A stretch of 32,879 bases of DNA from Bacillota bacterium. Its GTDB lineage: Bacteria; Bacillota; UBA994; UBA5500. Under the pieces are notes generated by a model that was given only the letters and a program-made list of their open reading frames with translations, ran no database searches and had not been told where the DNA came from. Both the position numbers and the translations under genes were made by a program. Shown here one piece after another: positions 4,011 to 21,629 of the stretch (position 1 is its first letter; each line of letters starts with the position of its first letter). The stretch spans positions 1 through 32,879 of the forward strand of contig JAKOXL010000031.1 of NCBI GenBank assembly GCA_029781045.1, read 5' to 3'.

Positions 4011-4880
4011 TTGTCCAGCAGACGCACATCTCTATTAACCATAATTGCAGTAGGCTGCATCTCCTATTTACTAGATCCTACGCCCGACCGCCTACCTTTC
4101 CTCGCGTTGGCGGCGGCCATCCTAGGAACCATCCTTCTCCCTCGCACCAAGAAGGAACGGATAGCAGGAATCCTGCTCTGCTGTGCGCTGCTATTCTTCT
4201 TCATAGGCCCCGTGCTAAGCAGCCAGTTCATTGAGGAAACTTTAGCTGGCATAACGGCAGAACCGATGCAGCACTGGCCAGCTCCCGCTGCCCAGGTGGG
4301 GTTAGGAGGGCAACAGATAACGTTTAGGGGCGATGGTCGGTACTATATAGCCACAGTCTGCTACTGGCTAAATAAGCACCAAGCATTAGTTGCTGCCCAT
4401 CGTATCAAAGAGTTTTCTGTAGGAGCTAGCATGCCTATCCAGCTGGTGGCGGAAGGGCTGGTTGAAGAACTCTCAGCCGAGATACTCTTTAATGATGATA
4501 ATGGGGTGGGCATTAAGCTGGCCGATGAGCCTTCCTCCCCATGGGAGCAATTGCCGATAGCAGGCACCAGCGAGATTATCATTGGGGGAGAAGCCGAGAT
4601 CATCTCCATCCACGGCGGTTCTTTCCCTGTCATAGTTAAAGGCTTTCTTGCCATGGACAGCCAACAAGAGAAGGTTGTTATAGAAAGGATTAATGATACG
4701 GATAACTTCATCGGTGGCATGAGCGGCAGCCCCATCGTGCAAAATGGGAAGATCATCGGCTTCATGAGTAGTACGCTAAGAGGAATGAAAGGCTTAGCCT
4801 TCGGTAATGTAGCGGCCCAGGCATACGCACAAACGGAAGGCTTAATGCAAGAATACGCTCGAGAGAAGCCACAAAAATAG
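4011..4880 (+). CDS. SpoIVB-like (S55) membrane-anchored serine peptidase
   Basis: A 289-residue protein with about three N-terminal hydrophobic segments (residues 6-21, 28-43, 51-69) and then an extracytoplasmic domain. The motif FIGGMSGSPIVQNGKIIG (about 233-250) matches the active-site serine region of SpoIVB peptidases, which cleave SpoIVFA and open the SigK checkpoint. His130 in LVAAHRI is the likely catalytic histidine. There is no clear PDZ domain and the protein is shorter than SpoIVB, so it is a relative rather than SpoIVB itself. It starts with TTG (4011) behind GAGGTGAT, four bases after the lipoprotein stop; no better start is in frame. A terminator follows. A role in surface proteolysis with the neighbouring lipoprotein is inferred. 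Confidence 0.72.
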   Translation: MSSRRTSLLTIIAVGCISYLLDPTPDRLPFLALAAAILGTILLPRTKKERIAGILLCCALLFFFIGPVLSSQFIEETLAGITAEPMQHWPAPAAQVGLGGQQITFRGDGRYYIATVCYWLNKHQALVAAHRIKEFSVGASMPIQLVAEGLVEELSAEILFNDDNGVGIKLADEPSSPWEQLPIAGTSEIIIGGEAEIISIHGGSFPVIVKGFLAMDSQQEKVVIERINDTDNFIGGMSGSPIVQNGKIIGFMSSTLRGMKGLAFGNVAAQAYAQTEGLMQEYAREKPQK

Positions 4881-4940
4881 AAGGCTACACAGTCTTGCGG
4901 GTAAAGCAAAGAGCTATATAACTTGGCCCCAGCATTAAAC

Positions 4941-4978
4941 AGCCACGGGAAACACGCCCGTGGCTATTTCTTCTATTT
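4941..4978 (+). terminator. Rho-independent terminator
   Basis: A 9-bp GC-rich stem (4941-4949 with 4957-4965) and 7-base loop are followed by a T-rich tail. It ends the lipoprotein-peptidase unit and separates it from the convergent acetyltransferase gene. Confidence 0.85.
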
Positions 4979-4998
4979 AGACGTATTAGCCGAGAATA

Positions 4999-5816
4999 TC
5001 ATACAGAAAACCAATACACCTGATAATCATAGGCTTTAGCGAACCCTAGGCTTTCTGCCAGCGCAATTGAGCCCTTGTTAGTGGGCATCACATCCCAATG
5101 GACAGCGATGCCTCGCTGGTGGCACTGTTCCAGCAAAGCAGCTGTGGCTAATTTAGCAAACCCCTGCTGGCGAAACTCGGGTAGCGTCTCCACCACCAGC
5201 GCATGTCTCTGGGCGCCGGCATACCCCGTAAAACAGAAACTGACTACCTGATCCTCCACTACACAGCAGTTGCCTAGGCCGTTAGCCAAGAATCGATCAG
5301 GGGATTGCCAGCAATCCCACAACATCTTCGTCAGGAAATGTTCTTTGCCTAAGGGGCCGGCTAAAAGAGCAGCATCAATTGGTACTGCCTTTGCCCGCTC
5401 CTCTACTTCGTGCCAACGCGGTTGAGCCAGCAAATAGACCAACTGGGGCTCAGACTGCAATTCCCTCTTGGCGAAGGTATGCTCAATCAATAAATTCCAA
5501 GCCGGATCATCAGCACTGAACTCGAAACTAGACATCCCACGAGCCTTCAGAAAGGCGGCCAACTCCGCATCGATTAGCCGCTCCACGTCTCGTAAGAATT
5601 CCTGCCCTGGTTTCCCCAATAAAAAAAACCGCTCTGCCCCTGCACCCAAACCAGGGCTGCCTGAGGCGCTGTCGATTGATCTACAAAAACCCTGCCAGGA
5701 CTATGGCCTCGAATCACCGAGTCCGACTCAGGGTAATAAATCTTGCCTCCGGTCAGAGGAACCGCCAGCTGAAATTGCGTCTTTGCTAATTCAAACGCTG
5801 TCTTTCTCCTTACCAA
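4999..5816 (-). pseudogene. GNAT acetyltransferase, frameshifted at a T8 run
   Basis: Two overlapping minus-strand frames together make one protein of about 270 residues resembling the GNAT_acetyltran_2 (ZmaR-like) group. The N-terminal part (5816 down to about 5621) reads to QAALVWVQGQSGFF. The C-terminal part, in another frame, continues LLGKPGQEFLRDVERL and carries the acetyl-CoA binding core (residues such as LVVETLPEFRQQGFAK and ALAESLGF). The frames meet at eight T residues (plus-strand A run 5621-5628); a ninth T would restore one frame. A real deletion, a sequencing or assembly error in the homopolymer, or slippage are all possible. A TTG at 5816 is the most upstream plausible start; the real start is uncertain. 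A TATAAT hexamer lies upstream. Confidence 0.75.
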
Positions 5817-5865
5817 TGCTTGTAGGGCAGTCCTCTGCCCCTTTTTGGCAAAATATCTACCCTAG

Positions 5866-5894
5866 ATTATAGCCTTTTGTCTCCTGAACAGAAA
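5866..5894 (-). promoter_or_regulatory. Candidate vegetative promoter for the acetyltransferase gene
   Basis: On the minus strand a perfect TATAAT (5866-5871) stands 17 bases from a weak TTTCTG (5889-5894). The -10 is convincing and the -35 poor. Confidence 0.4.
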
Positions 5895-5903
5895 CGGGTT
5901 AGA

Positions 5904-6152
5904 TCAAAGTGCTGAGGTATAGGCATTAGAAATCGTCTCGCAATCCACGATAGTACCTTCTGGGGTGGTCTCAATTAGTTCAACCCATATAGGCTGGTTC
6001 AAATACTAGCCCCCCGCCCCTGGGCGTAGCTGAAGAGCCTTTGTGCTTGTCTGCGAATTTTCCACTGTACTCTCGTGACAGCATGGCAAGTAGGAGAGAA
6101 CCGACAGAAAGGACTAACAAAGAAACGACAGGCAGTTTATTCTTTCCCTTGG
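5904..6152 (-). pseudogene. Decayed paralogue of the membrane-anchored protein at 14003-14551
   Basis: Directly after the stop of the lipoprotein gene, the minus strand encodes a typical signal-anchor (LPVVSLLVLSVGSLLLAML) with no start codon, reaching a stop near 5993. In another frame it continues YLNQPIWVELIETTPEG and ends at 5904. This C-terminal stretch matches the end of the protein at 14003-14551 (DRPIRV, then VELIETVPE), with a one-base loss in the AGTATT-TGAACC region, a deletion of about eight codons, and loss of most of the middle domain. It is therefore a shrunken, frameshifted copy of that gene, once probably last in the site A operon. Confidence 0.7.
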
Positions 6153-7265
6153 TTACCTAGACGGTAACTGAAAGCTGAACATCTTAGTATTAATCTTATC
6201 TGCAGGGAAAGTCGTCTCGGACAATGCCTTGCCACGGGCATCGTAAACAGTGAGCACAGCGTTACTATACTCGTAGGCTAGAGTGGCTTGCGGTTTACCG
6301 TTTTGCCAAACTATGGTGATACGTTTACTAGGAAGTTGGGCTCCGGTCTTCTTGTCTACCGAGTCAGTGCAATCGTAGTTTAGGAGCAAGCAATCCTCCC
6401 AGGCGGTAACATCATAGAGCTTGATGCCATTGATTTTCTCCTGCGGCAAGAGCCTATCGAAAATAGCACTCTTGTATTGTTCGTAGTAAGCATATTTGCC
6501 AGTTTGCAAATCCAGTGACGCCAGAGCCAGCCCATCGCGGAAATAATACTTGCCCTCAATAATACCATTGTTATAAGTGGGTAGAGAGTTGCCTACTAAG
6601 TCGGCTCCAGGGCGCACTTCATAGGTTTGGAAAGCAGTCTGCTCGCTAGCAAAATCATAGGTAAGGCAATGAAAATAATTCTCCCAATGCGAGTGGCTGT
6701 CATCTTCAGGCCACTGTTCAAGAAAGATTAGCGTTACCTGACCAGCTGTGTAATCGGCCAACACCAAGTTAAGAAAACTGCTTTCCGTCTCCTTCTTGCC
6801 TTCTGGAGGAGACAGCCGCGCCTCCAGGCCATCTTTGGTACATACAATAAGCCCCGCATATTGCCCCTCGCTATCGTATTCAACCTCAACTATGCAGCCT
6901 TTGCCATATATCCAGTGCTTTTCCGGATCGGGAAAAATCATCAAGTCGGGTTGCCGGACCTCAATACCGTCCTCTTCCCGTAAGAAGGATACAAGCGTCG
7001 TGCCATCCCAAAGCTTAGCGTCAGGCCCTAGGCCAATCTCCGGTATTAAGGGAGCTTTGTATAACGTTTCACCTTGCCATTGAACCGTACCATCGCTGCA
7101 GTTAATATGGCCTATCTGCACGTCCAATTGATTGTCAGCGGTGTTGTGATAAAAAAGGGTCGGTATGATGATATCTTCCTTCGGTGAACATCCAAAAAGA
7201 CATAGAAGCAGACCGAAGGCAAAGGTAAGGGCCAAAACAATACCCCTCACTGACCGCTTAATCAT
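6153..7265 (-). CDS. Putative lipoprotein of unknown function
   Basis: A 370-residue protein with a lipoprotein signal peptide (Lys/Arg-rich start, hydrophobic residues 9-24, lipobox LFGC with Cys26), so it is probably tethered to the outer face of the membrane. The rest is acidic and rich in Tyr, Trp and short beta-like stretches, including repeated patterns such as YNNGIIEGKYYFRDGLALASLDLQTGKY, suggestive of a beta-propeller-like fold, but I recognise no family. The ATG at 7265 has AGGAGG about ten bases upstream. It follows the amidase pseudogene on the same strand and could be read from site A, possibly limited by a weak hairpin at 7292-7324. Confidence 0.8.
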   Translation of the reverse strand: MIKRSVRGIVLALTFAFGLLLCLFGCSPKEDIIIPTLFYHNTADNQLDVQIGHINCSDGTVQWQGETLYKAPLIPEIGLGPDAKLWDGTTLVSFLREEDGIEVRQPDLMIFPDPEKHWIYGKGCIVEVEYDSEGQYAGLIVCTKDGLEARLSPPEGKKETESSFLNLVLADYTAGQVTLIFLEQWPEDDSHSHWENYFHCLTYDFASEQTAFQTYEVRPGADLVGNSLPTYNNGIIEGKYYFRDGLALASLDLQTGKYAYYEQYKSAIFDRLLPQEKINGIKLYDVTAWEDCLLLNYDCTDSVDKKTGAQLPSKRITIVWQNGKPQATLAYEYSNAVLTVYDARGKALSETTFPADKINTKMFSFQLPSR

Positions 7266-10997: not shown

Positions 10998-11555
10998 ATG
11001 AAGAAGCTCACTGCGTCCGACATGGAATATATTGAAGGGCTATACCGTGAAATGTATACGCTTCTGTTCAGCTATGCCAAAAGGGTTTTGCAGAAAGAAG
11101 CGCTAGCTGAAGAAGCGGTACAAGAGACCTTTGTAACGGCCTGCCAGCGCCTAGATAGCATTAAATCGAGCCCTAACCCACAGGGTTGGATAATGAACAC
11201 ATTGAAATATATCACCCGACGAATTCAAGAAGCACGCAATTTGCATAGTCGCTACCTATTTCTAGATGAATCGGCACTAAATATCCCTGACCCTACGGCT
11301 CATTACAAGGACCCGGCCCTGCTCTACGACGGTCTGGTCAGCCAGGAAGACTATTATTTGCTGAGCCGCACAGGCATAGATGGTTGTTCTACGTTAGAGC
11401 TGGCCAAAGAACTGGGCATTAGTTTGGCAGCTTGTCGAAAACGAATCCAAAGGGCAAGAGAAAGGTTTAGAGCCCAATACGGCCGCGAGTATAAGAAAAA
11501 GGAAAAAGCTAGATTGGGTGTCACAAAAAAGACTCAATCGCGGATATACGATTAG
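10998..11555 (+). CDS. ECF-type RNA polymerase sigma factor (only intact copy in window)
   Basis: A 185-residue cytoplasmic sigma-70 family protein. Region 2 spans about residues 10-85 (LYREMYTLLFSYAKRVL, EEAVQETFVTACQR, then PQGWIMNTLKYITRR). Region 4 is about residues 120-165 with a helix-turn-helix (STLELAKELGISLAACRKRIQRARERF). The ATG at 10998 follows GGGGGAGGGTGATGG; upstream in-frame codons have no ribosome site. The last codons overlap promoter-like site E, and the anti-sigma gene starts 14 bases after the stop. It should recruit polymerase to ECF promoters when released from the adjacent membrane anti-sigma. The seven TGTCACA-N17-RATATA sites are its probable targets (inference). Confidence 0.9.
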   Translation: MKKLTASDMEYIEGLYREMYTLLFSYAKRVLQKEALAEEAVQETFVTACQRLDSIKSSPNPQGWIMNTLKYITRRIQEARNLHSRYLFLDESALNIPDPTAHYKDPALLYDGLVSQEDYYLLSRTGIDGCSTLELAKELGISLAACRKRIQRARERFRAQYGREYKKKEKARLGVTKKTQSRIYD

Positions 11556-11562
11556 GGGGTGA
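11516..11562 (+). promoter_or_regulatory. Putative ECF promoter, site E, inside the end of the sigma gene
   Basis: TGTCACA (11519-11525), 17 bases, GATATA (11543-11548), followed by AGGGGGTGAT, which doubles as the ribosome site of the anti-sigma gene. The -35 and -10 lie within the last codons of the sigma gene, giving the anti-sigma its own sigma-dependent promoter. Confidence 0.75.
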
Positions 11563-11569
11563 TGATGCC

Positions 11570-12463
11570 ATGCAATCTGAAAACCGGGATGCACTAAAAG
11601 AGCGTTTTGCTCACTTGGATTTAGCACAACTAGAGGAGTTACTCCGGCAGGATTGGTTAGCTGATAGCAATAACCTGACGGCTGAGCAGACTCTGGCGAT
11701 TTTAGAGGTAATTGAGGAAAAGAAGTCTTCGGGGCTGAATGAAGACAGGGAAGCTGAAGTAGCGGCAGCCTGGCAGTCTTTTAAGCATCACTACCTGCCT
11801 CTGGTTGAAGCCGATGAGACTCTATACGGTGCCACTATCAGAAAAACGAAATCTACTAAACGTTGTTTTATACCACCTCGACTTTCCTGGGCCGCAGCTA
11901 TAATAGTCGTGTTCATCCTGTCTACCTCGGTTTTTGCTTATCAAGTTTATGGTTATAACATCTTCGAGAATATTGCCCAGTGGACAGCCGAGATTTTCCG
12001 GCTGAAAGCTCCTGTGGAGCCCAACGACAATCTGAACGAGAATTTAGGGGAAGATTTGTTCCCAGACGCCTCAGACCCCCGGCTGCAACCAGTGTATGCG
12101 ACAATGAAAGAGCTAGAGATACCGACTACTTTAGCACCAACCTGGATTCCGGAACGCTTCGATGGACATCCGATAGTTGAAACATCCACTACCCCATTTA
12201 AGGGGGTAATCTCTGCCTTCATCCACGAATCAGAAACACTCATGCTTAGCTTTGATTACCTTACCAAGGCTGACACCATATATGAAAAGGACGACTCTCT
12301 GGTTACCTCGTTACGGATTAACGGCGTCACCTACTACTTCATGTCCAACAATGCGCAGAACCGAGTTGTCTGGTCAGTCGACCAATTCGAATGCTCGATA
12401 AATGGAACAGTGACCTATGAAGAACTAGAACAGATAGTGCTATCTATTTATGAAAGGAGATAG
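11570..12463 (+). CDS. Membrane anti-sigma factor with DUF4367-like ectodomain
   Basis: A 297-residue single-pass protein: cytoplasmic acidic N-terminus (1-105) with a conserved ERFAHLDLAQLEELLRQDW segment likely to bind sigma, a membrane helix near 106-124, and an extracellular domain ending in a DUF4367-like region (about 180-295) with TLAPTWIPERF, INGVTYYFMSN and the terminal NGTVTYEELEQIVLSIYERR. DUF4367 proteins commonly sit beside ECF sigma genes. Paralogues lie at 15343-16335 and 19815-20639. The start at 11570 has AGGGGGTGATG upstream from site E. The next gene begins 3 bases after the stop. The signal it senses is not evident. Confidence 0.85.
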   Translation: MQSENRDALKERFAHLDLAQLEELLRQDWLADSNNLTAEQTLAILEVIEEKKSSGLNEDREAEVAAAWQSFKHHYLPLVEADETLYGATIRKTKSTKRCFIPPRLSWAAAIIVVFILSTSVFAYQVYGYNIFENIAQWTAEIFRLKAPVEPNDNLNENLGEDLFPDASDPRLQPVYATMKELEIPTTLAPTWIPERFDGHPIVETSTTPFKGVISAFIHESETLMLSFDYLTKADTIYEKDDSLVTSLRINGVTYYFMSNNAQNRVVWSVDQFECSINGTVTYEELEQIVLSIYERR

Positions 12464-12466
12464 AAG

Positions 12467-12907
12467 ATGAGAAAACCAAGGTATTACAGCATTTTACTAG
12501 TGGCATTGTTATTAAGCTTTGCTTTTTCATCGCATACAGCGGTAGCAGCGGAAATACCTTTGCGAGCTAGCGATTACTTTGATTCCATTCAGGCATCCTT
12601 AGAACCAACTGGCTACGGTCTCGTTCGCATCGATTTCCGAGTAACAGGCACCTCTTTAATGAAACAATTAGGTGCCACTGAAGTGCAGATCAAGGAAAAG
12701 ACCGCGACATCATGGACTACCGTACGTACTTATCGCTACGAGAATTTCCCTGATCTCATGGGTTATAACGTGCTGCAGCACTCCGGGAGCATCGTCTTCC
12801 CTGGTATCGCAGGACGCACCTATGTGGCACACATTACTTTTTACGCCTCAAATGCTAGTGGCAGCGAAAATCAGCTAGTAATCACCTCTCCTGCTACTGC
12901 CTACTAG
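12467..12907 (+). CDS. Small secreted protein, DUF6147-like
   Basis: A 146-residue exported protein: signal peptide (residues 1-28, ending AVAAEI) and a compact beta-rich domain beginning LRASDYFDS and ending GRTYVAHITFYASNASGS. The pattern RASDYF, a short IDFRVTGT strand, then LGATEVQI, a HSGSIVFPGIAGRTY loop and a closing strand recalls DUF6147 proteins; the function of that family is unknown. GGAGAT lies 6 bases before the ATG. It is the third gene of the sigma/anti-sigma unit, and a frameshifted paralogue sits in the same place in cassette 3 (20676-21111), so it belongs to the system. A hairpin follows at 12932. Confidence 0.82.
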   Translation: MRKPRYYSILLVALLLSFAFSSHTAVAAEIPLRASDYFDSIQASLEPTGYGLVRIDFRVTGTSLMKQLGATEVQIKEKTATSWTTVRTYRYENFPDLMGYNVLQHSGSIVFPGIAGRTYVAHITFYASNASGSENQLVITSPATAY

Positions 12908-14929: not shown

Positions 14930-15069
14930 TTTTTACCTCCCTTTTTCTTCCCAAGAATACGCTCTTAAAGATTGCAGGTCGTAGATGCAAAGGTATGTAT
15001 ATTCGATATATCTCCTCCTTATCATTAATCTAATAGGCGCTAATTGCCTACCGTCGACATAACTTAAAA

Positions 15070-15118
15070 ATCACCCCCTCATCTATTCATGTCGCGAACC
15101 CCTTGATTTGTGACACCC
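15070..15118 (-). promoter_or_regulatory. Putative ECF promoter, site C (degenerate -10)
   Basis: Minus strand: TGTCACA (15109-15115), 17 bases, CATGAA (15086-15091), then TAGATGAGGGGGTGAT. The flanks match the other sites base for base but the -10 departs from RATATA, so activity may be lower. Confidence 0.6.
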
Positions 15119-15266: not shown

Positions 15267-15294
15267 TTGGCATTCTGAAGCATTTTATTATACT
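15267..15294 (+). promoter_or_regulatory. Candidate vegetative promoter of the sigma/anti-sigma fusion
   Basis: TTGGCA (15267-15272), 16 bases, TATACT (15289-15294), about 50 bases before the GTG start. The stretch just before the start (TAAGTAAAA, then GGGGGTGAT) resembles that in front of the intact sigma gene. Confidence 0.5.
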
Positions 15295-15342
15295 CTAGTA
15301 ATTCAAATAGCAAATATAAGTAAAAGCTGGGGGTGATAGTTA

Positions 15343-16335
15343 GTGTCACACCGACTCACTGAATCTGAGCAACGGTTCCTGAACGAGTTATATGCAAAAA
15401 TGCGCACACCCATGTCTAATCTGGCAATAGGGACTCTGCGCCAAAACTCCTTGGCAAAAGACGCAGTACAAGAGACGATGCTTATCGCCAGCAAAAAAGA
15501 ACGGTTTGCCAAGCTAGAGACGGAGCAGTTGGAGGGATTAATCGAGCAGGACTGGCAAGAAGGAGGCAGCACGCTTAATGCGGAAGAAACTCTGGCTATC
15601 TTAGAGATACTTGAGGAAAGAAGTCCCTCAGGGGTGACAGATGACGAGATTGAAGCGGAGTGGCAGACTTTCCTAACCGACTATCTGCCCGTATTGGAGG
15701 AAACCGGAGAAACCCTTTATGAAGGCATTTACGACCTCACAGAGCCAGCTGTTAAACACCGCTCCAAAACATCTATGCTTACACGCGTTGCCGCTATACT
15801 AGCGGTGGTTGTCGTGTCGTCATCGCTGTTTGTTTATAAAACTTACAGCTATAACGTATGGGAGAACTTTGCCAAATGGACGGCCGAAATATTTCGCCTA
15901 GATAACCAAGGCGCACCCATCGAAGAGCCTATGTTTCCAAACGCGGCAGATCCAAGACTGCAACCACTTTATGAGGCAATGAAGGATCTAGAAATACCGA
16001 CAACGTTAGCACCGACTTGGATTCCGGAACGTTTCCAAGCTACCGGAATAATTGACTCATCGGATACTCCATTTAAAGGCGTTGTCAACACCTTTGTCCA
16101 GGAACAGGAGGTACTAATGCTGATTTTTGAGCACAGTACCGATACAGACACTATATATGAAAAGGATGACACCGATGTCACCACCTTGAAAATCAACGGA
16201 GTCACTTACTACTTCATGTCTAACTTGGCGCAGAATAGAGTTGTCTGGTCGGTAAACCAATTTGAGTGCTCAATTAACGGGACGGTCAGCTATGAAGAGC
16301 TGGAACAAATGGTGCGATCAATATACGAGAGGTGA
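15343..16335 (+). CDS. Chimeric sigma N-terminus fused to DUF4367-like anti-sigma (cassette 2)
   Basis: An unbroken 330-residue frame. Residues 1-50 (LTESEQRFLNELYAKM, SLAKDAVQETMLIAS) match the start of the intact sigma factor up to region 2.2. From residue 51 (KKERFAKLETEQLEGLIEQDW) it matches residue 10 onward of the anti-sigma at 11570, with a membrane helix near 148-165 and the DUF4367-like end NGTVSYEELEQMVRSIYER. The join at about 15492 lies in an A-rich run. A deletion has removed the rest of sigma, the internal promoter and the anti-sigma start while keeping the frame. GTG at 15343 follows GGGGGTGAT. It may still act as an anti-sigma carrying a sigma fragment. No small secreted gene follows. 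Confidence 0.85.
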   Translation: MSHRLTESEQRFLNELYAKMRTPMSNLAIGTLRQNSLAKDAVQETMLIASKKERFAKLETEQLEGLIEQDWQEGGSTLNAEETLAILEILEERSPSGVTDDEIEAEWQTFLTDYLPVLEETGETLYEGIYDLTEPAVKHRSKTSMLTRVAAILAVVVVSSSLFVYKTYSYNVWENFAKWTAEIFRLDNQGAPIEEPMFPNAADPRLQPLYEAMKDLEIPTTLAPTWIPERFQATGIIDSSDTPFKGVVNTFVQEQEVLMLIFEHSTDTDTIYEKDDTDVTTLKINGVTYYFMSNLAQNRVVWSVNQFECSINGTVSYEELEQMVRSIYER

Positions 16336-16381
16336 TAAAATATAAGAAGGACAAAGTTATCCTGCCCATGGATGGATATTA

Positions 16382-16424
16382 AAACCCGTGGAGGGATTTC
16401 ATCCACGGGTTTCTTGTTCTATTT
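16382..16424 (+). terminator. Rho-independent terminator
   Basis: An 11-bp stem (16382-16392 with 16402-16412) with a 9-base loop and T-rich tail lies 46 bases after the fusion gene. Confidence 0.88.
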
Positions 16425-16486
16425 AAACATCAACTCCGTATGTGCTCCCCCGCCCTATCCGGCCCCCGCGTTCGTTCAGCTCCACG

Positions 16487-17074
16487 CTAGGTGGTGGTTT
16501 TCGCTTTTATCTTTCGAAGGAGCAGGGCCGCCAGCGCAACAAACATAACCACTCCGAAGATGACCAGCACAGGGCTCAGCATCCCGGAGCCCTCGCTCCG
16601 GCCGCTGTGGAGGTCCATCTCCGCGACGGCTGCCGCCAGATTTTCCACCCCGGCGCGGAACCCGGCAGCGTCGGCCTCCGGGACCAGCCCGTCGCTCACC
16701 TGCACATAGGCCTGCTTCAGATTGTGGATTTAGACGACGCATACGGTATCAGCGGCGGCATGCTGGGATATTTCGGCCACCGCGTCGTCAAAAGAAGCGT
16801 AGCCGCTGCTCTCCAGCGTCTCCCACTGCCATAGATAGACGTGGCAGCCATAGGCCTTGGAAAATTCGACAAGCCGGGACAACATGACCTTATAGCTGTC
16901 CACCATCACATCGCCGATCACCATAAAGGTCGACAGGGCCGGCAGATAGTCGCCCCGCAGCTTCGTGCTAAAGGGGAAGTCCGGCGTCCCATATCTGCTT
17001 GCGGACGCCGCCGTACCAAGCAGCGTCAGGGCAAGGACAACCACGAGGAACGTCTTTCCGAGTTTCTTCTTCAT
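16487..17074 (-). pseudogene. Secreted C-terminally anchored protein with in-frame TAA
   Basis: One minus-strand frame runs from ATG 17074 to 16487 and is interrupted only by TAA at 16730-16732 (a single base from CAA, Gln). The protein would have a signal peptide (MKKKLGKTFLVVVLALTLLG, then ASA), a soluble domain of about 130 residues, and a C-terminal membrane helix with basic tail (VLVIFGVVMFVALAALLLRK). This layout recalls TPM/YgcG-type proteins, but I cannot show that motif. GC-rich codon use differs sharply from the neighbours, pointing to recent transfer. AAAGGATG lies upstream of the start. Confidence 0.7.
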
Positions 17075-17127
17075 CCCGTCATCGCATCCTTTCTAGACAG
17101 CCCTCCCCCTGGGAGGGGGTGCCCAGT

Positions 17128-17775
17128 CTACTGCGGCAGGTCATAAAATGCAGGCACATACCGGTTGAAGACCCGCCCAGTCTCAAGGGTGGCGTTTGCG
17201 GCGAGTTCCCCTACTGTGATCCCAACGAAGACCAGCTGGCCGTGGGTGAAGGCACCAGTCTCGACGTCAAAGTAGTAGGAGGCCCCGCACTCATAGGTCT
17301 CCCCGCTCGAAACGAGCGTCGGGTTATATGGCAGGGTCGCGATATCAGAGGCGGTGAACTCCACGATGACAGCACTTGCTGCGTCAAGGAAAGCTTGCGT
17401 GCTATCTTCGACCTTTAGATCGATCAGGGAAGAATCCCCCGTGAGCGGGATTACCATTGTTTCCTCAGCTTGCTCCTCCACATAGAGAACCGGAGGAACA
17501 ATTTCCACGTCTTTAAGATTCAACGATTCCTGCGAATACAAAGGTATAGGTTACAGTCCCGTTTTCAAAGGAAGCCATGTTCAACGTGCTGCGTGTGCCG
17601 TCCTTGAGGTTTACCAGCTCCGCAGATTTGGTCTCCAAAACCATCGGATCGTCAATTGAGCGAACGACTACTGAGCTAATGATTATCATATTTGGCGATC
17701 TTGAACATGAAGGCGAGACATTTGCGGGCGGAGCGTATTCTCTTGATACGGGAGCCTCCACCCCTCGCCCATAGC
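17128..17775 (-). pseudogene. Frameshifted extracytoplasmic protein fragment of foreign composition
   Basis: Two overlapping minus frames. The upstream one reads SSVVVRSIDDPMVLETKSAE, NLKDGTRSTLNMASFENGTV, then TYTFVFAGIVES and stops at 17513. The downstream one (from about 17530) continues KDVEIVPPVLYVEEQAEETM and ends at 17128. Removing one T near 17516 would join them. The strand-rich pattern resembles the Ig-like extracytoplasmic domains (DUF4179/DUF5643 type) of other Firmicutes anti-sigma proteins; this is a weak guess. No start or signal peptide remains, and the upstream end runs into IS-like repeats. The next gene on this strand (17074) has the same GC-rich codon use. Confidence 0.5.
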
Positions 17776-17878
17776 CCCTAAGACTCAAACACTGCGAAAA
17801 AATGGATACGAAGATGAAGGAGTGATGCCTAGAGCTGTCGCCCCAAACACGCTGGTGAACACAATCTGTTTTCGCCAG

Positions 17879-17926
17879 GGTGGTCAACATTTCGCTAAGT
17901 GCGGTGGTCAATTTTTAGGTGGACAA
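17879..17926. repeat. IS21-like terminal repeat relic
   Basis: GGTGGTCAA occurs at 17879-17887 and 17903-17911, followed by GGTGGACAA at 17918-17926. Tandem TGGTCAA-type repeats are typical of IS21-family ends. No transposase gene is left in the window. It lies at the edge of the foreign-composition block. Confidence 0.45.
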
Positions 17927-19514: not shown

Positions 19515-19757
19515 TTAGAAGGCCACATAGATACAAAAGCAGATCAAATCAATCCTGACTTGCTTTATGAGGGCCTGGTAAGTGAGGAAGATTACTGCAT
19601 ACTTCGCCGCCTAGGGATTGATGGTTGTACAGTTAAGGAACTGGCTGACGAGCTTAGTATCAGTTCGGCTACAGCCCGTAAACGAATCCAAAGGGCAGGA
19701 GAGAGATTTCGAAAACAGTATGCGCAGCAGATAGACGTGATTGAAAAAGACTTATAA
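19515..19757 (+). pseudogene. C-terminal fragment of an ECF sigma factor (cassette 3)
   Basis: This is the region 4 half only. HIDTKADQINPDLLYEGLVS aligns with the linker of the intact sigma (DPALLYDGLVS), and VKELADELSISSATARKRIQ with its helix-turn-helix. The N-terminal region 2 that binds the -10 element is missing, and the sequence before about 19515 has stops. The TTG at 19560 could start a peptide of 65 residues, but no ribosome site supports it. The anti-sigma promoter F follows its end. Confidence 0.8.
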
Positions 19758-19760
19758 AGG

Positions 19761-19806
19761 GGTGTCACAAAACGCGCCCTTCAGGAAATATATAAGTAAG
19801 GGGGTA
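19761..19806 (+). promoter_or_regulatory. Putative ECF promoter, site F
   Basis: TGTCACA (19763-19769), 17 bases, AATATA (19787-19792), then AAGTAAGGGGGTACT, which serves as ribosome site for the anti-sigma gene at 19815. It is equivalent to site E. Confidence 0.75.
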
Positions 19807-19814
19807 CTAACGCT

Positions 19815-20639
19815 ATGCGAAGAGACAAGGAATTCTACAAAGAACACTTTGCCAATTTTGATGTCGATCAACTAGAGGAGCTAATCCAACGAGATTGGCA
19901 AGCTGATGGCACTCTGCTTAATGCGGAACAAGTTCTAGCTATCGCAGAGATACTTGAGGAGAAAATTCCTTCGGGGGTGACGGATGAGGAAATCGAAGCA
20001 GACTGGCAATCTTTCTTGAACGATTATCTGCCACTACTAGAGGTGGACGAACCCCTTACTGAAGCCAAGGGAAATAAAGAGCAACTTCCCAAGCACTCCA
20101 GAATTGCGTGGGCTGCCGGCATACTAGCGGTGGTTATTCTGTCTACCTCTGTGTTTACCCAGCTAGTCTACGGTTATAACGTGTGGGAGAATTTGGCTAA
20201 GTGGACGGCAGAGATCTTCCAGCTGAAGACTCCTGTTCCACCCAACGAGAATCCTGAAGAAGATATGTTCTCAAACGCGGCAGATCCAAGACTACAACCA
20301 CTTTATGAGGCGATGAGGGATCTAGAAATACCGACAACGTTAGCACCGACTTGGATTCCGGAACGCTTTGAGGACCCGGGAATAATTGAGACGTCAGACT
20401 TCCCGTTTAAGGGGGTGGTCACTGCCTTTACCCAAGAGCAAGAAACACTGATGCTCATCTTTGACTACATTGCTGACGGGGAAACCATGTATGAAAAGGA
20501 TGATGCGCCTGTAGAAACTTTGAAAATCAACGGGGTCACCTACTACTTCATGTCTAATCTGGCACATAAGCAGGTTATCTGGTCGGTAAACGAATTCGAA
20601 TGTTCGATTCAAGGGACGGTCAGCTATGAAGAGTTATAA
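19815..20639 (+). CDS. DUF4367-like membrane anti-sigma factor, last residues lost (cassette 3)
   Basis: A 274-residue paralogue of the anti-sigma at 11570: acidic N-terminus with the LEELIQRDWQADG segment, membrane helix near 97-115 (GILAVVILSTSVF), ectodomain with TLAPTWIPERF and INGVTYYFMSN. It ends at TAA 20637-20639 where the paralogues have a Glu codon (YEELEQ); the lost nine residues QMVRSIYER are still readable before a TGA at 20667-20669. It keeps its own ECF-type promoter (site F) although its sigma partner is only a fragment, so any sigma it binds would be the one at 10998 or one elsewhere. Confidence 0.82.
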   Translation: MRRDKEFYKEHFANFDVDQLEELIQRDWQADGTLLNAEQVLAIAEILEEKIPSGVTDEEIEADWQSFLNDYLPLLEVDEPLTEAKGNKEQLPKHSRIAWAAGILAVVILSTSVFTQLVYGYNVWENLAKWTAEIFQLKTPVPPNENPEEDMFSNAADPRLQPLYEAMRDLEIPTTLAPTWIPERFEDPGIIETSDFPFKGVVTAFTQEQETLMLIFDYIADGETMYEKDDAPVETLKINGVTYYFMSNLAHKQVIWSVNEFECSIQGTVSYEEL

Positions 20640-20675
20640 CAAATGGTGCGGTCTATATACGAGAGGTGATAAGAA

Positions 20676-21111
20676 ATGAAGCGAGCAAAATTAAGCAGTA
20701 TTATTCTAGCAGTAATGTTACTAGGGCTAGCCGTTGTGCCACAGATGGTGGCAGCAAATACGGAGCCTTTGAGAGCCTGTGAGTATATTTTCAGTCGTCA
20801 AGCAGCTGCAGTACCACTTAACTACGGCCAGATCCGCTTTGATTTCCAGATATACTTCCATTATGAATCAACTGGGCGTAACTGAGATACAAATCCTAGA
20901 GCAAAACGGAACTTCATGGAGAACGGTTGAGATCTACCGCTACCAAGACTATCCTAATCTCATGGGGAGCAATACATTAAGACACACCGGCAGCATAACT
21001 TTCCCTGGCATCGCCGGTCGAACTTATGTAGCCCACATTACCTTCTACGCCGCAAATGCAAAGGGCAGTGAAACACAGGTAATTACCACCTCTTCTGTCA
21101 CTGCCTACTAG
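20676..21111 (+). pseudogene. Frameshifted DUF6147-like small secreted protein (cassette 3)
   Basis: A paralogue of 12467-12907. The first frame gives a signal peptide and PLRACEYIFSRQAAAVPLNY up to RFDFQIYF. The second frame gives MNQLGVTEIQILEQ through GRTYVAHITFYAANAKGSET to 21111. Compared with cassette 1, the stretch between GATTTC and the ATG of M(N/K)QLG is 16 instead of 21 bases, so a 5-base loss broke the frame. GAGGTGAT precedes the start. Confidence 0.83.
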
Positions 21112-21333: not shown

Positions 21334-21374
21334 TATACTAATTAATAATTAGCCTTTAGGGGAAGGTGTTTGAC

Positions 21375-21629
21375 ATGAGTAAGCGCTACCAAGATCTGAT
21401 TGAGCTTAAGCTCGCAGATCGGCGCCCGCAAGCCTTCGTTTGGCGGGGGCGTAATTATGAAATCAAAGAAGTGCTCAAACGATGGACTGTAAGCGGAGAT
21501 TGGTGGCAAAAGGAATCGCGCCGCCTGCATGCGGTGGTGGCGGCAAAACGCTACGGCGAGTGGGGGCAATATGAAATAGTCTATGTCGCCAAACGACGAC
21601 AATGGTTTTTGCATCGGGTTTATGACTGA
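21375..21629 (+). CDS. DUF6504 family protein
   Basis: An 84-residue protein with the DUF6504 pattern: RPQAFVWRGRNYEIKEVLKRW, then GDWW and the closing RRQWFLHRVYD. In other bacteria this domain is found at the end of ImuB-like Y-family polymerases or as a small separate gene next to dnaE2, so it is probably an accessory to SOS translesion synthesis. ATG 21375 (GGGGAAGG eight bases upstream) is preferred to GTG 21366. It overlaps dnaE2 by eight bases (ATG 21622, stop 21627-21629). Confidence 0.82.
   Translation: MSKRYQDLIELKLADRRPQAFVWRGRNYEIKEVLKRWTVSGDWWQKESRRLHAVVAAKRYGEWGQYEIVYVAKRRQWFLHRVYD

Follow-up and report, generated by a model that had tools for sequence, protein, structure and literature searches.

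An in-frame fusion of an ECF sigma factor remnant to a DUF4367 anti-sigma factor, possibly a retained spare inhibitor, in a Bacillota bacterium

The window, the whole stretch of 32,879 nucleotides that was analyzed, corresponds to contig C33 of a Bacillota bacterium, whose genome measures 2.0 Mb (57 contigs; estimated completeness 100%). Three copies of one module lie here within 10 kb. All three genes of copy A (10998-12907), which encode an ECF sigma factor, an anti-sigma factor and a secreted protein, are intact; copy B is a fusion; and copy C (19533-21111) has decayed, its secreted-protein gene being frame-broken too. This genome has no full sigma copy besides that of copy A. The features of the two outer copies are as follows.

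10998 to 11555, plus strand: intact ECF sigma factor of copy A (Sigma70_r2 and Sigma70_r4_2)
11519 to 11559, plus strand: internal ECF promoter of copy A, found by its pattern and deleted in copy B
11570 to 12463, plus strand: intact anti-sigma factor of copy A (DUF4367; profile search)
12467 to 12907, plus strand: third gene of copy A, a small secreted protein (open reading frame and comparison)
19533 to 20672, plus strand: remnant of sigma region 4 and anti-sigma gene with a premature TAA in copy C (open reading frames and comparison)

The ECF-type promoter of the locus reads TGTCACAAA-N15-(G/A)ATATA, followed by GGGGGTGAT, an element that stays conserved behind the promoter also in places where the annotated gene does not use it as its ribosome site. 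Since all five exact matches in the genome (8604, 10860 and 19439 on the minus strand; 11519 and 19763 on the plus strand) fall into this locus, the predicted regulon of the ECF sigma factor is local; it is contained as a whole in about 12 kb, with promoters that diverge from the sigma modules, and each module is paired with a divergent target gene. A sixth copy of the promoter, altered in its -10 element, adjoins copy B (15115, minus strand). The internal promoter was detected by pattern search at 11519-11559 in copy A and at 19763-19804 in copy C and is absent from copy B, in agreement with the first-pass annotation of this DNA, which had reported its loss.

Copy B consists of one continuous open reading frame of 330 codons that extends from a GTG at 15343 to position 16335, and not to 15640, where that annotation had let the feature end. 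In the alignment, the GTG takes the place of the ATG that starts the sigma gene of copy A, and the start codon and ribosome site had rightly been described as kept.

15343 to 15492, plus strand: sigma stub of about 50 codons, the N-terminus and regions 2.1-2.2 of an ECF sigma factor (alignment; weak NCBIfam match)
15478 to 15480, plus strand: internal ATG (M46; Phe in intact sigma factors), a possible alternative start yielding a near-native anti-sigma factor, without a good ribosome site ahead of it
15490 to 15498, plus strand: deletion junction between sigma and anti-sigma codons (alignment)
15496 to 16335, plus strand: anti-sigma part with cytoplasmic sigma-binding region, one predicted membrane helix and extracytoplasmic DUF4367 (Pfam, alignment, low-confidence model)

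Residues 1-50 of the fusion match the N-termini of the sigma factors of copy A and of the congeneric genome G002 (33-37% amino acid identity over 51 codons), with a BLOSUM62 score of 76 versus at most 43 across 5000 shuffles. From K52 onward, the fusion aligns with DUF4367 anti-sigma factors, starting at their residue 10 or so, at 58-66% identity (58% to copy A, 65% to G002), and it retains all residues that are invariant from this point on. The Pfam profile of DUF4367 matches residues 223-327 (E = 1.7e-8; 35.3 bits, above the gathering cut-off of 22.1), and a hydrophobic helix at about residues 146-167, seen in the sequence and in the low-confidence model, lies between the cytoplasmic N-terminal part and DUF4367; these data support the membrane anti-sigma product proposed earlier, with the membrane helix as a prediction. 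Judged by its sequence, the product of copy B files as a variant of the DUF4367 anti-sigma factors. In the solved structures that were searched, no counterpart of the anti-sigma factor was found; for the sigma factor, SigL was.

The same Pfam search found no sigma domain in the fusion, from which complete regions 2 and 4 are absent, while NCBIfam sigma models match residues 14-57 weakly. Because region 2 was kept only in its 2.1-2.2 half, the part responsible for -10 recognition was lost along with region 4; of the earlier statement that region 2 had been retained and region 4 removed, the second half stands and the first holds only in part. Going by the spacing in copy A, about 450 nt are missing between sigma region 2.2 and anti-sigma codon 9 or so, and with them regions 2.3-2.4 and 4, the internal sigma-dependent promoter and the anti-sigma start. 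The alignments agree with an in-frame deletion that joins sigma residue 50 to anti-sigma residue 10, approximately, and the junction set near 15492 in the first-pass annotation falls within the interval given above. The third gene of the operon (12467-12907 in copy A), which encodes the secreted protein, is absent from copy B.

The open reading frame is framed by the following signals.

15067 to 15115, minus strand: divergent ECF promoter adjoining copy B, -35 intact, -10 altered (CATGAA), missed by the exact pattern
15267 to 15294, plus strand: sigma70/sigmaA-like promoter TTGGCA-16-TATACT upstream of the fusion (consensus match only)
15331 to 15339, plus strand: ribosome-binding site GGGGGTGAT a few nucleotides ahead of the GTG, aligning with the sigma leaders of copy A and G002
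16382 to 16412, plus strand: intrinsic terminator with an 11-bp stem, a 9-nt loop and a T-rich tract (-23.1 kcal/mol; z -3.8 for 16370-16425)

The promoter-like site matches the consensus at 10 of 12 positions, and the region holds four such sites as compared to 2.1 in shuffled sequences; at the corresponding place, copy A carries TTGCTT-17-TATGAT. The promoter-like site, the ribosome site and the terminator around the open reading frame, together with the intact C-terminus of the anti-sigma part, speak for retention of the gene, and the decay of the genes neighboring copy B counts against it. The stretch between copies B and C at 16476-17911 of the window is richer in GC and contains short, probably frame-broken genes on the minus strand.

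Selection on the two halves was assessed with our own implementation of GY-type branch codon models (F3x4 frequencies, shared branch lengths, four topologies), with five anti-sigma sequences and only two full, intact sigma sequences as input, and with the species represented by one strain. On the branch leading to copy B, the anti-sigma part has an omega of 0.20-0.23 in the joint codon model, and neutrality is rejected under all four topologies (2dlnL 24-61), also when possible conversion tracts are left out; the cytoplasmic sigma-binding region taken alone yields an omega of 0.23 (2dlnL 8.8). The sigma stub, in contrast, has an omega of 0.56-0.86 versus 0.07-0.08 in intact sigma factors. That it evolves at this background value is rejected (2dlnL 21.6), while the better topologies do not reject neutrality; it is marginal under the worse ones (2dlnL 4.3-4.5) and when conversion tracts are left out (3.3). 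In a switch model that lets constraint end at a point in the past, neutrality applies to no less than about half of the branch for the stub and to no more than about 13% of it for the anti-sigma part, limits that loosen to roughly 0.3-0.4 and 0.2 of the branch, respectively, without conversion tracts; a simultaneous relaxation of both parts is rejected, being worse by 11-14 lnL units. The retention suggested by the first-pass annotation hence gains support from the anti-sigma half (omega about 0.22), and constraint across the fusion as a whole does not hold for the effectively unconstrained stub. Statistically, these codon comparisons show that purifying selection persisted on the anti-sigma part, whereas constraint on the stub effectively ceased.

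Over about 100 nucleotides, copies B (15937-16035) and C (20273-20371) are about 94% identical, as against 72% overall, silent sites included, and this tract is likely a product of gene conversion. Such conversion could inflate the apparent constraint on the anti-sigma part, although leaving the tract out changes little.

Among 60 relatives searched, the anti-sigma factor is present only in the two congeneric genomes, G001 and G002, and the fusion itself was found in the present genome only. G002 possesses an intact operon next to the same neighbor gene as copy C (21366-21629 in the window). A second copy in the same genome (L010, 8290-8653, minus strand) has its sigma gene joined out of frame to the anti-sigma gene by a deletion, and this relic has acquired a frameshift and stops and has lost most of the anti-sigma factor at a divergence of only about 16% from the intact G002 copy. 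The relic represents the second sigma/anti-sigma deletion of this type in the genus. G001 (L011, 4338-5421) has, as an independent case, an open anti-sigma gene beside sigma debris. Both this case and the contrast between copy B and the decayed G002 relic speak for a retained anti-sigma gene in copy B.

On balance, we lean towards the view that copy B is a retained anti-sigma gene devoid of its sigma factor, with the stub as a passenger that supplies the start of translation. After the three-gene operon had been duplicated, a deletion removed the DNA between sigma region 2.2 and about codon 9 of the anti-sigma gene from copy B and closed up the frame. Transcription of the fusion would proceed from the housekeeping-type promoter at 15267-15294 instead of the sigma-dependent internal promoter, with whose removal copy B would leave the feedback loop. 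Translation would begin at the sigma start codon, and the strong terminator would end the unit; the frame of the stub would have stayed open because the stub is translated as the leader of an anti-sigma factor that is itself under constraint. The product would be inserted into the membrane with DUF4367 on the outside, and its cytoplasmic region may bind the copy A sigma factor, the only intact paralogous, and the only evident, partner. It would thereby act on a small and locally clustered regulon, either as a permanent additional brake or by providing an alternative input from a sensor.

It is possible, but in our judgment doubtful, that the fusion is a recent pseudogene, in which a late deletion left the frame open by luck and which is going the way of copy C. 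The copy C branch has an omega of 0.30 despite the stop already present, so that a branch average is blind to recent loss and copy B may have been lost very recently; the anti-sigma part may have been neutral for up to about 10-20% of the branch, the -10 element of the divergent promoter beside copy B is altered, and copy B lacks the third gene of the operon. The drift of the stub could also have begun in an unfused, already dying sigma gene, with the deletion being recent; the chance that such a drifting sequence stays free of stops is about 0.1-0.2. Against a recent pseudogene stands the fact that the stub, although free of constraint for a much longer time than the anti-sigma part, contains neither stop nor frameshift (chance about 0.15, from stops alone). 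The rejected simultaneous relaxation of both halves and the intact C-terminus, promoter-like site, ribosome site and terminator likewise argue against it.

Another reading, which we hold to be improbable, has translation start at the internal ATG at 15478, giving a near-native anti-sigma factor without a stub and leaving the fusion frame as a relic. The M46 in place of the Phe of intact sigma factors fits such a start, as does the resulting product (MLIASKKERF...), whose N-terminus is about as long as the native MQSKDQKFYKERF...; however, it is 15343, and not 15478, that has GGGGGTGAT just upstream, and nothing would then require the stub frame to be open (again a chance of about 0.15).

We consider it quite improbable that the tethered stub is itself functional, either by occluding the anti-sigma domain of the fusion or as a decoy, as the first-pass annotation had envisioned. 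In class I anti-sigma factors, helix 4 binds sigma regions 2.1-2.2 and helix 1 binds region 4 (PMC7406223). The stub corresponds to precisely the part that helix 4 grips, and self-binding is therefore structurally conceivable; the AVQET block has been kept as well. Contacts were mapped without gaps onto the E. coli RpoE sequence, with numbering anchored on the VVQEAF/AVQETF block and RseA-like binding assumed. The copy A and G002 sigma factors are identical at all ten mapped positions contacting helix 4, whereas the stub keeps one of the ten versus 18 of 38 positions elsewhere (Fisher p 0.065) and has a proline at one of them. With nine contact positions substituted, regions 2.3-2.4 and 4 gone, and an omega that does not differ from 1 in the better topologies, the self-occlusion or decoy proposal is not supported, and docking cannot be read from the AlphaFold model of the fusion, the quality of which is poor (five sequences; mean pLDDT 38.6). 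We give still less credence to a turn of the autoregulated operon into a constitutive, self-tethered anti-sigma factor whose stub tunes its affinity for the surviving paralogous sigma factor.

An assembly artefact is scarcely credible: three paralogous copies do lie inside 10 kb, but to the junction with 50 nt on either side (15440-15550), other parts of the genome match over no more than 23 nt, the genome contains no unplaced sigma copy, and G002 exhibits a related but distinct deletion. The misassembly between paralogous copies that had been raised as an objection is unlikely, a chimera of copies A and C being excluded by the 28-50% nucleotide differences that set both halves apart from them.

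Sigma and anti-sigma sequences in one polypeptide are known from IutY of Pseudomonas putida (ECF243; PMC5411451, PMC8999054), in which, as in the fusion, the sigma sequence is N-terminal to a membrane anti-sigma factor. IutY, however, keeps its sigma domain, which is active after release by Prc and RseP, whereas the fusion carries a near-neutral stub of regions 2.1-2.2 on a DUF4367-type protein and, without regions 2.3-2.4 and 4, has no functional sigma domain that proteolysis could free. Natural joins also occur in ECF48, ECF52 and ECF53, with a C-terminal fusion to membrane portions that act as anti-sigma factor and a zinc-finger domain, and in fused members of ECF36 (PMC8999054); these are described as sigma factors with regulatory extensions, and the copy B product cannot be a sigma factor. 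In the open-licence literature that we searched, the sigma/anti-sigma fusions encountered retain the sigma factor, and no case of a truncated stub came up. With the DUF4367 anti-sigma partners of Bacillota, the fusion shares the domain order and DUF4367 seen in copy A, where the gene adjoins that of the ECF sigma factor, and a membrane helix is predicted in the fusion as well; unlike the fusion, these proteins (copy A; Flavonifractor sp. An306, L009) carry no stub, and their sigma factor has a gene of its own. The G002 relic resembles copy B in its sigma-to-anti-sigma deletion but is out of frame, frameshifted and deprived of most of the anti-sigma factor.

Copy B thus looks like a retained spare inhibitor and not like a new type of switch. 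It offers a readable case of duplicated sigma/anti-sigma pairs coming apart, in which the sigma factor is lost, the inhibitor is kept and the sigma leftover serves as a leader, and it illustrates that selection on one half alone can maintain a long open fusion frame. Of the five anti-sigma copies in the genus, three lack a complete sigma gene as partner, which hints at a role for the order of loss; had the inhibitor gone first, we infer, the sigma factor would be left unopposed.

A scan for close relatives in a wider genome collection returned only a distant sigma/anti-sigma pair of the same kind, 25% identical, in Flavonifractor sp. An306 (L009). There, anti-sigma paralogues lie on both sides of one sigma gene (4024-7248), which suggests that duplication is common in the family. 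A scaffold gap in G002 (L005, 3208-3294; a run of N) has the same ECF promoter sequence on either side, and this repeat may hide another gene.
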